From Azospirillum brasilense (GTDB lineage Bacteria > Pseudomonadota > Alphaproteobacteria > Azospirillales > Azospirillaceae), in assembly GCF_001315015.1 (NCBI RefSeq), contig NZ_CP012914.1, forward strand, positions 2,600,501 to 2,664,500: a stretch of 64,000 bases of DNA. The letters are read 5' to 3'. Of this stretch, positions 12,893 to 42,430 are shown one piece after another. Position 1 is the first letter of the stretch; each line of letters opens with the position of its first letter. The notes under the pieces are model-generated. The model saw only the letters and a list, made by a program, of their open reading frames with translations. It had not been told where the DNA came from and ran no database searches. The position numbers and the translations under genes were made by a program.

Positions 12893-13786
12893 ATGATGGA
12901 CTGGGACAAGCTTCGGGTCTTCCACGCCGTGGCCGAGGCTGGAAGTTTCACGCACGCCGGCGAGACGCTGAACCTCAGCCAGTCGGCGGTCAGCCGCCAG
13001 ATCAGCGCGCTGGAGGAGAGCCTCGGCGTGCCGCTGTTTCACCGGCACGCGCGCGGCCTGATCCTGACCGAGCAGGGCGAGCTTCTGCACCGCACCGCCC
13101 GCGATGTCTTCGCCAAGCTGTCGATGACCGAAGCGATGCTGACCGAAAGCCGGGAGCATCCGAAGGGTCCGCTGCGCGTGACCACCACGGTGGCCTTCGG
13201 CTCGACCTGGCTGACCCCGCGCGTCAACGAGTTCCTGTCAATCTACCCGGACATCCAGCTCACCCTGCTGATCGATGACAATGAACTGGATCTGGCGATG
13301 CGCGAGGCGGACATCGCCATCCGCATGAACACGCCGCGCCAGCCCGACCTGATCCAGCGCCACCTGATGTCGGTGCATTTCCATCTCTACGCCCACCAGG
13401 AGTATCTGAAGAAGCGCGGCGCCCCGAAGATCCCCGCCGACCTGGACGGGCACGACATCGTCGCCTATCCGCCGGACGTCCGCGCGCCCATCGCCAACGT
13501 CAACTGGATCAACGAGGTGGGCGACCCGGCACCGGGCGTGCGCAAGCCGATTCTGCAGGTCAACAGCATCTATGCCATGTACCGCGCCGTGGAGAGCGGC
13601 CTGGGCATCGCCGCCCTGCCCGACTTCCTGGTGGACGGCAGCAAGGAGCTGACGCGCGTCCTGCCGGACGTGGACGGCCCCAAGGTCGACGCCTACTTCG
13701 TCTATGCCGAGGAGTTGCGTCATTCCAAGCGCATCGCGGTGTTCCGCGATTTCCTGGTGAAGAAGGTGGCGGAGTCGGCCTTCTGA
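12893..13786 (+). CDS. LysR-family transcriptional regulator
   Basis: 297 residues. The N-terminal winged helix is textbook: MMDWDKLRVFHAVAEAGSFT, then LNLSQSAVSRQISALEESLG and LFHRHARGLILTEQGE. The C-terminal effector domain (VTTTVAFGSTWLTPRVNEFL onward, through VESGLGIAALPDFLV) is a periplasmic-binding-protein-like fold. The start is set by family length; 25 extra residues upstream are open but atypical. Target and effector are unknown: no divergently transcribed partner enzyme is adjacent. A strong intrinsic terminator follows. Confidence 0.88.
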   Translation: MMDWDKLRVFHAVAEAGSFTHAGETLNLSQSAVSRQISALEESLGVPLFHRHARGLILTEQGELLHRTARDVFAKLSMTEAMLTESREHPKGPLRVTTTVAFGSTWLTPRVNEFLSIYPDIQLTLLIDDNELDLAMREADIAIRMNTPRQPDLIQRHLMSVHFHLYAHQEYLKKRGAPKIPADLDGHDIVAYPPDVRAPIANVNWINEVGDPAPGVRKPILQVNSIYAMYRAVESGLGIAALPDFLVDGSKELTRVLPDVDGPKVDAYFVYAEELRHSKRIAVFRDFLVKKVAESAF

Positions 13787-13836
13787 CCAAGCTCAGCCTT
13801 TGGGCAGACATGATGTTTGCCTGTTTTTTATGCACA

Positions 13837-13872
13837 GGCGCCCAGCAAGCTATGCCGGGCGCCTTTCTTTTT
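13837..13872 (+). terminator. Rho-independent terminator of the LysR gene
   Basis: GGCGCCC and GGGCGCC pair around a 13-nt loop and are followed by TTTCTTTTT. It sits about 50 nt after the LysR stop codon. Confidence 0.8.
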
Positions 13873-14079
13873 GTACGGATTGTACCGAAACCCCTCCCCC
13901 ATCTTTGCAATCCGGTTGCCGTTTTCTGTCCCCAGCCACCCACCCTTCAGCACCATACGCCCCCGCACGCCATTTTTTCGCTTTTCTTCAACGCCTTACA
14001 AGCTATGCGGTTCTCGCATGGCCGAATTGGATATTTGGGGATGGAATCCTTTGGGCAGAATGGTCAAATCTTGGGCGTT

Positions 14080-14218
14080 GGATGTTGCGCCGCAGCATCC
14101 GGCGTTTCGTCCCGGAAGCCCGCTTCCGGGGTTGGGTCCTCGGACCCAGCGTCTCCCAGACGTGAAGCCTCCCTGTTCAACTCGCCGGCTAATCAATGGG
14201 TTAGCCGGCAGTTTTTTG
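14080..14218 (+). ncRNA. Candidate structured small RNA with tandem hairpins
   Basis: No coding frame with a ribosome site covers this stretch, but it contains a close-packed series of hairpins: 14080-14100 (9 pairs including one G-U, loop GCC), 14111-14130 (9 pairs, CCCGGAAGC with GCTTCCGGG), 14131-14150 (9 pairs including one G-U), 14150-14162 (5 pairs, loop CCC), then an intrinsic terminator whose stem is GCCGGCTAA/TTAGCCGGC followed by AGTTTTTTG. The U-run fixes the plus strand. A single-stranded CCTCCC at 14168-14173 could pair with Shine-Dalgarno sequences. The 5' end is uncertain and may lie further upstream. It lacks the SRP, tmRNA and RNase P motifs I know; a 6S-like role cannot be excluded. 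Confidence 0.55.
14184..14218 (+). terminator. Rho-independent terminator ending the small-RNA candidate
   Basis: A perfect 9-bp stem GCCGGCTAA/TTAGCCGGC with an 8-nt loop, directly followed by AGTTTTTTG. No plus-strand coding gene ends here, so it implies a non-coding transcript, or readthrough from LysR. Confidence 0.8.
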
Positions 14219-14250
14219 TCGGGACGGTCCGGAGGGGAGCGGTAGACCCG

Positions 14251-14646
14251 TCATCGGGCGCCGGGGAGCCGGGCGCCCTCGCGCGCATAGATCTGACGCG
14301 GCGCGCAATATTCATCGAGTTGCACCACCACGGCTCCGGGCTGGCTGTTCAAGCCCACCCAGGCATCGTAGCCGACGATGTCCCCCGGTATGTTGCGATA
14401 CAGGCCATAGGCGAGATAGCGGACATCGGACACCGGTATCCGCACCCCGGCGAGGGACGAGGCGACGGCCCCGTTGCAGCGGTTGGGACTCAGCCGATCC
14501 AGGGCGCTCACCGCGCCGGGCTCGGGTGTGGCCTGTGGTGGCGGGCTCAGCCCGGCGCAGGCGGCCACAAGAACCATCAACGCGACGGCTCCCCCCAGCT
14601 GGAGCACCCGGAGGCACCCTGCCCTTCCGACTGTTCCGCCCCTCAT
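14251..14646 (-). CDS. Predicted lipoprotein, hypothetical
   Basis: 131 residues starting MRGGTVGRAG. The signal peptide contains a long hydrophobic core and the lipobox LVAAC, so the mature protein would be lipid-anchored. Notable segments are NRCNGAVASSLAGVRIPVSD and GDIVGYDAWVGLNSQPGAVV, then CAPRQIYAREGARLP. The start is chosen because GGAGG lies 8 nt upstream; a GTG 18 bp earlier overlaps that site. I do not recognise the family. Probably periplasmic. Confidence 0.65.
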   Translation of the reverse strand: MRGGTVGRAGCLRVLQLGGAVALMVLVAACAGLSPPPQATPEPGAVSALDRLSPNRCNGAVASSLAGVRIPVSDVRYLAYGLYRNIPGDIVGYDAWVGLNSQPGAVVVQLDEYCAPRQIYAREGARLPGAR

Positions 14647-14817
14647 CGGATCGTCCTCCAGCACGCCGTTCCTTCGTCCCCTCGGATCAACAGGCAGGAG
14701 GACGTCCTGTGCCAGAGCGCCAACCCAGGGCCGACCGCCTCAGCTCACCACTTTTCAAACCAGAGTCTTTTCAAACCGACCCCCTTGAAGCGGAGGGCAT
14801 TGAAGCGGACCGGCCCG

Positions 14818-16309: not shown

Positions 16310-16661
16310 ATGGGGAACGCTGGCATGCCGCCTCTGCGCGCGCCACCGGTCCGGTCAACAGCCTAGAATTCGACCATTCGTGGCCTTTCACAGGGCCGGC
16401 AACCTGCCGTGGTCCGGCGCGGAACGCCACGCCGCTGCCGGCCCCGGGCGCCGCCGATGCCGCAAAATCAATCATCGCCAATCAAAACATCAACCGTGAT
16501 TTGCATGAATACCCGAGTATGAAGGTCGGTTCTGTCATCGGGCAACTATAGTGGGGCGATGCTTTCCACCGTCTTCGGCGGCTTTGGTTTTGACGGGCGG
16601 GCATTCTTTCGCGTAAGTGTTGATCGTCGTTTTCCCAACGGTGTCTCGACCATTCGCGCCC
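16310..16661. other. Intergenic region between divergent uspA and the EAL gene
   Basis: No coding frame with a ribosome site was found. The segment 16465-16545 is relatively A+T-rich (CAAAATCAATCATCGCCAAT) and is the likeliest place for the promoter of the PAS-GGDEF-EAL gene, but no clear -35/-10 pair was assigned. Confidence 0.35.
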
Positions 16662-42036: not shown

Positions 42037-42430
42037 GGGTCAGCGGTCCTCAGTTTCGGTCTCCATCCGCTCGAACGCGATCGGCTCAAGCACAAACGAG
42101 CCAGTGCGCGAAACTCGCGGACTGGCGGAGGTCCCCGGCACACAGGCCGATGGTACCCGGTCGATGGCTCGACGGATGCAGGTCGGCGGACCATACGCAT
42201 CGCGGGGGGCGGAGTCAACAACCCAACGACCACGCCCCGCTGGACCCTCTTGCGCAACGCCCCGCGAAGGGTCACTATTTCCTTAAACAACCAAGGGCTT
42301 TGCGGCCCGGGAACAGCGCCCGCGATGGAACGCATTCGAGGCGTACTTGAATAAAGCGTTACCGATTGTTAACTTTTTCTTCGCGGCTCCCCTTTAGAGT
42401 GTGCCGCGACTCCAACCCGGGATTTCCCTG
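42037..42430. other. Intergenic region between divergent ffh and the pentapeptide gene
   Basis: About 390 bp without a supported gene or RNA. The last 90 bp are relatively A+T-rich (TTGAATAAAGCGTTACCGAT, then GTTAACTTTTTC) and probably hold the promoter of the pentapeptide-repeat gene. No terminator or operator of known type was identified. Confidence 0.4.

Follow-up and report, generated by a model that had tools for sequence, protein, structure and literature searches.

The window, a stretch of 64,000 nucleotides of Azospirillum brasilense DNA, carries on its plus strand a gene for a LysR-type regulator of the VtlR/LsrB type and, 3′ of it, a predicted small RNA (sRNA); the features of this locus are collected in Table 1. 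The gene and the sRNA are separated by two terminator-like structures, the second of which is missing from the terminator scan, whose loop limit is 8. The scan found 3 terminators in the region scanned, with 1.4 expected. A minus-strand ORF (14251-14664) that ends beside the sRNA matches no Pfam or NCBIfam family, and the next gene-like plus-strand ORF starts at 16617. Since no plus-strand gene lies directly 3′ of the element, a leader role is unlikely, and the cis-regulatory leader was dropped as a candidate. Another contig of the same genome encodes a further LysR protein with 73% identity to that of the window (G000:C3:698235-699125). The sole Rfam match over its cut-off in the window is the RF01793 'ffh' sRNA at 42091-42142 on the minus strand (40.4 bits, cut-off 35).

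Table 1. Features of the sRNA locus, in window coordinates.
Feature	Position	Strand	Basis or remark
LysR-type regulator gene, VtlR/LsrB type	12893..13786 (start 12893 or 12896)	+	Pfam HTH_1 PF00126, LysR_substrate PF03466
Intrinsic terminator of LysR gene with T run	13801..13829 (structure 13801-13823)	+	Terminator scan, sequence
Second terminator-like hairpin, GGCGCCC...GGGCGCC and T-rich run	13837..13872 (structure 13837-13863)	+	Read from sequence
Dyad ATGC-N7-GCAT (T-N11-A), predicted LysR-type operator	14005..14019	.	Centre -65 from predicted start
-10-like TCAAAT	14064..14069	+	In the place of the homologs' CTTAnnTT box (dyad +58..+65); weak
Predicted sRNA, ~140 nt	14077..14216	+	Fold, alignment, dyad spacing; 5′ end inferred
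5′ hairpin GUUGGAUGUUGC GCC GCAGCAUCCGGC	14077..14103	+	Consensus structure and predicted-transcript fold
Hairpin 2	14111..14130	+	Helix 3 of covariation test: both-side changes in 4/8 pairs
Hairpin 3, directly 5′ of core	14131..14150	+	Helix 4: both-side changes in 2/6 pairs
Core hairpin CGUCUCCCAGACG with CUCCCA	14150..14162	+	Almost invariant in 25-sequence alignment
Linker UGAAGCCUCCCUGUUCAACU with anti-Shine-Dalgarno seed CCUCCCUGUU (14168-14177)	14163..14182	+	Alignment, accessibility, sequence
Intrinsic terminator of sRNA	14184..14217	+	Independent terminator scan; stem 14184-14209, then T6

A preliminary description had placed at 14080-14218 four packed hairpins, three of them of about 20 nt, followed by an exposed C-rich motif and a strong intrinsic terminator. 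The minimum free energy (MFE) of this stretch is -73.3 kcal/mol, compared with a mean of -47.91 (sd 3.71) for shuffled sequences (z -6.84), and none of 200 shuffles was as stable. RNA folding gives four hairpins and a terminator, as described, with the lengths corrected to 27, 20, 20 and 11 nt; the element itself stands, its 5′ end being better placed at about 14077, as suggested by the promoter spacing discussed below. The terminator was recovered by an independent scan, and its sequence varies among homologs. The motif CCTCCCTGTT occupies 14168-14177, and CCUCCCUG has a mean unpaired probability of 0.87 in the predicted transcript of the window, in agreement with the exposure first ascribed to it; over 69 loci the mean is 0.73, and the value is at least 0.7 in 42 of them. 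The predicted transcripts of these 69 loci have a median length of 138 nt (89-182), and 64 of them fold into 4-6 hairpins. A TGYTGC-N2-4-GCARYA hairpin, a relative of the 5′ hairpin of the window, occurs at 34 of 112 loci (0.0 in shuffles). The MFE structure adds a helix, 14104-14109 with 14163-14168, that encloses the middle hairpins; as helix 2 of the covariation test it receives no covariation support, 4 of its 5 pairs never varying in the genus alignment.

A DNA search with 14060-14225 found matches in 42 of 61 genomes, among them 36 of the 37 of the genus with the own genome included; the sole genus genome without a match is G010. In the alignment of these 36 sequences (31 distinct), 98.8% of the cells of the consensus structure are paired and 7 pairs show changes on both sides. 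Slid structures used as controls leave 33-49% of the cells paired, a comparison that favours the consensus structure since it was derived from the same alignment. The covariation score is 0.132 compared with 0.101 in shuffles, of which none of 500 scored as high; the number of further pair types is ordinary in this alignment (65 of 500 shuffles as high). Since the multiloop-closing helix and the core hairpin hardly vary, covariation neither supports nor contradicts them. The stems also covary in distant homologs. Of 86 distinct sequences, 61 form hairpin 3 as a perfect stem of 5 bp or more, G-U pairs included, and 18 different arm pairs occur among them; 50 shuffles gave a mean of 10.6 and a maximum of 17 such sequences. 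Any stem of this kind is missing from 21 of the 86.

The RNA has a conserved 3′ module, which consists of the hairpin GUCUCCCAGAC and of GUGAAGCCUCCCUG. At E≤0.01, a model of this module (R1) trained on 25 sequences has hits in 140 of the 289 alphaproteobacterial genomes, the weakest of these hits possibly being other anti-Shine-Dalgarno RNAs. The exact 20-base core pattern was found in at least 119 stretches of genome contigs; the invariance of the core in the resulting alignment is no evidence, since most core letters were required by the search pattern. Among the matches listed, the titles name Azospirillum, Roseomonas, Reyranella, Kiloniella, Thalassospira, Magnetovibrio, Nisaea and Pelagibius, and metagenome-assembled genomes named Acidiphilium, Inquilinus and Caedibacter also occur. 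None of four core strings, each 12-15 letters long, was found in the literature searched, whether written as RNA or as DNA; shorter core strings do occur, in 330 papers, and the 20 listed appear to be unrelated primers. In five Azospirillum genomes (L071-L075) the core is present in one or two additional copies, six altogether, which differ in their 5′ parts and lie some 10-45 kb away from the main copy, and no VtlR/LsrB-type LysR gene was found in the 9.5-11 kb fetched around these six copies. In two Minwuia loci (L115 and L129) a second seed copy, CGCCTCCCTGTTCAG, lies in the hairpin region 5′ of the core.

The linkage of the core with the LysR gene extends well beyond the window. An ortholog of this gene lies upstream of the core on the same strand at all 35 other loci of the genus (6.5-12 kb fetched), and at 24 of 30 loci from a search of the class (flanks of at most 1.5 kb), a set that includes the window's own locus and one more of the same genus. 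Among the matches listed, an ortholog within 600 nt upstream was found at 86 of 105 testable named loci and at 600-2000 nt in 4 more, 15 of the 105 core copies having no such gene nearby and 14 of the 119 stretches not being testable. A signature motif of thioredoxin reductase (trxB), which we take to be CATCDG-like, lies within 1.3 kb upstream of the LysR gene on the same strand at 66 of 77 loci with enough upstream sequence, and at none in the opposite-strand control. The 11 exceptions include all six testable Azospirillum loci. In the window trxB is not adjacent to the LysR gene, which is preceded by an MFS transporter gene and a minus-strand ORF. The LysR protein is a probable ortholog of VtlR/LsrB, as judged from synteny (trxB at the other loci) and similarity.

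Starting from the LysR gene gives the complementary view. Among 20 LysR loci, picked mostly for absent or weak core matches, R1 matches at E≤0.01 in 7, and within 700 nt CCTCCCTGTT is present in 5 and a perfect dyad in 7; a further seven LysR loci have CCTCCCTGTT in 5 cases and a perfect dyad in 6. Since there are LysR loci that lack the core, CCTCCCTGTT or the dyad, the module is not universal. At one locus of genome G161 (L253), the trxB signature, the LysR gene and the dyad are present with no CCTCCCTGTT within 700 nt, and a different RNA may take the place of the sRNA there.

The dyad is the second element that recurs with the core. A perfect ATGC-N7-GCAT lies 40-300 nt upstream of the core at 66 of 103 loci, and one with a single mismatch at 23 more, compared with 0.2 perfect dyads expected from letter shuffles. 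When 59 dissimilar loci are aligned on the dyad, C-T-T-A-n-n-T-T is preferred at +58 to +65, where a -10 box would lie. The -10-like box of the window agrees, by eye, with 3 of the 6 preferred letters, and from the spacing between dyad and box the start is predicted near 14077, which puts the centre of the dyad at -65. Of the published pattern GCAT-N3-TG-N3-T, 6 of the 7 fixed letters agree at 14016-14028, again by eye. Promoter motifs of the ECF and sigma-54 kinds, sought in the same way, were dropped.

Is the RNA transcribed from a promoter of its own, or is it cut from the LysR mRNA as a 3′-UTR-derived read-through product that lacks one? SorX is called a 3′-UTR-derived RNA in the title of the SorX paper, and a similar origin here would agree with the position of the RNA, which at most testable loci lies on the same strand a few hundred bases 3′ of the LysR gene. 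It would also agree with the promoter scan, which found no sigma-70 consensus promoter at the locus, a result that fits an activated promoter too without proving one. We nevertheless regard this origin as unlikely, because two terminator-like structures stand between the LysR gene and the RNA in the window, a conserved dyad and a -10-like box precede the RNA at a fixed spacing, two perfect dyads are present in each of three loci with tandem RNAs (family f42), and core copies exist where no such LysR gene lies nearby.

What would such an RNA act upon? The exact pattern AACAGGGAGG-N3-10-ATG occurs at 38 sites in 13 of 13 genus genomes, and the reversed pattern at 3, a ratio to be read in the light of the enrichment that any Shine-Dalgarno-like pattern would show. 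Among the 30 sites of the 38 that were read, four precede genes for ABC substrate-binding proteins, and most precede non-transporter genes. Pfam assigned 10 proteins at such sites as four ABC substrate-binding proteins, one dodecin, one 3-dmu-9_3-mt protein and four without a family; the dodecin site is the same in four genomes. A scan of the own genome for ACAGGGAGG-N3-10-RTG yields 23 rows, a few being double, and the seed-complement sites there include those of genes for a binding protein of the LivK type and a permease of the LivH/UrtB type. The extended complement ACAGGGAGG is not enriched before start codons, with 23 compared with 54 for C, G and T together (about 18 each), and GTAGGGAGG alone is rare there (1). 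Since the added A is not enriched, the link to transporter mRNAs is suggestive, and it is drawn mainly from analogy with AbcR1, SorX and SorY; livK of S. meliloti is an AbcR1 target (PMC3712013, PMC8844928). At 2290-2308 of the window, on the minus strand, a 78-aa ORF with the start MTTLYCACCGQPFRR has as its ribosome-binding site AACAGGGAGG, the complement of the full seed decamer, and this site is also kept in genome G005 (L299).

The CUCCC-rich core might instead bind a protein, Hfq for example, or further RNAs, and so act as a sponge or a sequestering RNA and not by repressing mRNAs. The core is conserved beyond what pairing with drifting targets would seem to need, and the Caulobacter sponge CrfA pairs with anti-Shine-Dalgarno-type alphaR8 RNAs (PMC12559287). 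However, the seed is anti-Shine-Dalgarno-like and predicted to be accessible, and mRNAs are the targets of RNAs that share this locus or the decamer (PMC8844928, PMC8307010), so that we consider this role improbable. It is very hard to believe that the element lacks a regulatory function, as a left-over strong terminator or hairpin or as the tail of a small coding gene, even though mechanical ORFs cross it, given that the hairpins change in length by amounts not divisible by three and show compensatory changes in the genus alignment, together with the conserved promoter-like elements upstream.

We therefore think it probable that 14077-14216 encodes a trans-acting sRNA of a variant AbcR/SorY type, controlled by VtlR/LsrB and acting by blocking ribosome-binding sites. 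The LysR protein, likely the activator of the sRNA, would bind ATGC-N7-GCAT at -65 and recruit polymerase to the weak -10 sequence, so that an RNA of about 140 nt would be made from its own LysR-activated promoter 3′ of the VtlR/LsrB ortholog and would end at its own terminator. The tandem hairpins would form a variable stabilising scaffold, and the functional part would be the conserved 3′ module, in which a small hairpin displays CUCCCA and CCUCCCUGUU stays unpaired. The seed CCUCCCUGUU would pair, perhaps with the participation of Hfq, with ribosome-binding sites of the AGGGAGG type and repress their translation, and the targets may plausibly include some ABC-transporter mRNAs among others, as for AbcR1 in rhizobia. 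The preliminary view of a regulatory RNA with an anti-Shine-Dalgarno-like motif is thereby supported as the best reading, given that the stems covary and no Rfam family reaches its cut-off at 14077-14216; the regular hairpin spacing then offered as a clue says less than the conserved 3′ module and the context of LysR gene, dyad and -10-like box.

The locus assigns a location, a probable regulator and a likely seed to an RNA family that no Rfam model recognises in the window and that recurs, among the matches listed, from Azospirillum and Roseomonas to Reyranella, Kiloniella and Thalassospira. RNA-seq of A. brasilense Sp245 is reported to have given about 468 candidates (PMC7685610). For the crop inoculant Azospirillum, the locus suggests a post-transcriptional switch under LsrB control that may act on nutrient uptake.

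Among known systems, AbcR1 and AbcR2 of the Rhizobiales (alpha-r15, RF02345) are closest in arrangement. The gene abcR1 lies directly 3′ of the VtlR/LsrB gene (PMC5461406, PMC7486931), in S. meliloti and Agrobacterium the AbcR genes adjoin the gene for the LysR protein (PMC5461406, PMC3712013, PMC8844928), and the RNA of the window also lies directly 3′ of such a gene. According to PMC8844928, LsrB drives abcR1, the promoter of abcR1 has a T-N11-A site, and anti-Shine-Dalgarno motifs of abcR1 repress transporter mRNAs; a T-N11-A LysR-type site lies upstream of the predicted promoter in the window too. According to PMC7486931, the order in Agrobacterium is trxB-vtlR-abcR1-abcR2 and trxB-vtlR is well conserved in Alphaproteobacteria, an order that is absent from the window. 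On S. meliloti, PMC7486931 and PMC8844928 are in conflict, which counts against the reading preferred here. In both RNAs a hairpin carries CUCCCA, and the linker has another C-rich segment of anti-Shine-Dalgarno kind that differs in sequence: Brucella AbcR has GUUCCC between hairpins, S. meliloti AbcR has UUCCCCUC, and the window has CCUCCCUGUU. The RNA of the window also has four hairpins and a terminator compared with the three hairpins described for AbcR in PMC3712013. The RF02345 model (cut-off 40 bits) gives no match in the window region up to E 5, and none over its cut-off in the 289 genomes of the class or in a set of 13 genomes. Set against AbcR1 by description, the RNA of the window looks like its Azospirillum counterpart.

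SorX (RF02784) and SorY (RF02651) of Rhodobacter share with the window CCUCCCUGUU followed by a terminator, and both act on transporter mRNAs (PMC8307010). The window scores 19.8 bits with the SorX model, below the cut-off of 46.6. In three genomes of family f23, a LysR homolog 46-48% identical to that of the window is followed by a dyad and a SorX/SorY-like RNA, with no trxB signature found upstream of the homolog. These RNAs score 41.5, 51.6 and 52.3 bits with SorX, two of the three over the cut-off, and 33.5-62.1 bits with SorY, short of its cut-off of 111; they are shorter than the RNA of the window and, by eye, lack the GUCUCCCAGAC...GUGAAG part of the core. The position at dyad start +72 precedes the SorX match by 5, 5 and 20 nt and the SorY match by 13, 18 and 4 nt, so that the spacing rule is a rough guide to the ends of known RNAs. 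At the loci of family f42 (L246, L247, L248), the LysR gene is followed by two or three tandem anti-Shine-Dalgarno RNAs matched by R1; their loops include TTCCTCCCAG, and they score below the cut-offs of SorX, SorY and suhB.

The alpha-r8 RNAs (MmgR, SisA-D; suhB, RF00519) likewise place a short anti-Shine-Dalgarno motif in a small RNA, and suhB gives sub-cut-off scores at some loci homologous to that of the window. At the window locus itself suhB (cut-off 41 bits) has no match, and the own genome (G000) has 11 suhB matches, 7 over the cut-off, none of them at the sRNA locus. These RNAs are numerous in Azospirillum, with 11 matches in G000 and up to 16 in G006, whereas PMC12559287 describes one copy for most species and several for some genera, and in most species a linkage of alphaR8 with a gene for N-formylglutamate amidohydrolase. 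The Cuckoo/CcsR and NfeR1 (alpha-r14) RNAs, which chain small hairpins with C-rich anti-Shine-Dalgarno motifs as the window does, are presumably the groups to which RS0680a and SmelA075/A099, respectively, belong. SmelA075/A099 of the Rhizobiales and RS0680a of R. sphaeroides have CCUCCUCCC-type motifs in several loops (PMC3927594). Neither CCUCCUCCC in several hairpin loops nor CCTCCTCCC is present in 14077-14216, and no Rfam family of the cuckoo/CcsR or NfeR1 kind is listed at the locus. 6S RNA, tmRNA, tRNA and other Rfam families reach no gathering score in the region, and a minus-strand hit to ar7 (19.3 bits, cut-off 60) was taken as chance.

By these tests, the RNA of the window appears to stand outside Rfam ar15, SorX and suhB and yet to work like AbcR1 and SorY. 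It also offers a connection, open to test, between the rhizobial AbcR RNAs and SorX/SorY of Rhodobacter, which have been described as separate groups. It is an evenly balanced proposition that the VtlR/LsrB regulator, the ATGC-N7-GCAT operator and an anti-Shine-Dalgarno sRNA form one ancestral module across much of the Alphaproteobacteria, of which AbcR1, SorX/SorY and the RNA family of the window would be diverged branches, the regulator and operator having been conserved while the hairpins of the RNA scaffold were replaced one by one around a seed that was retained.
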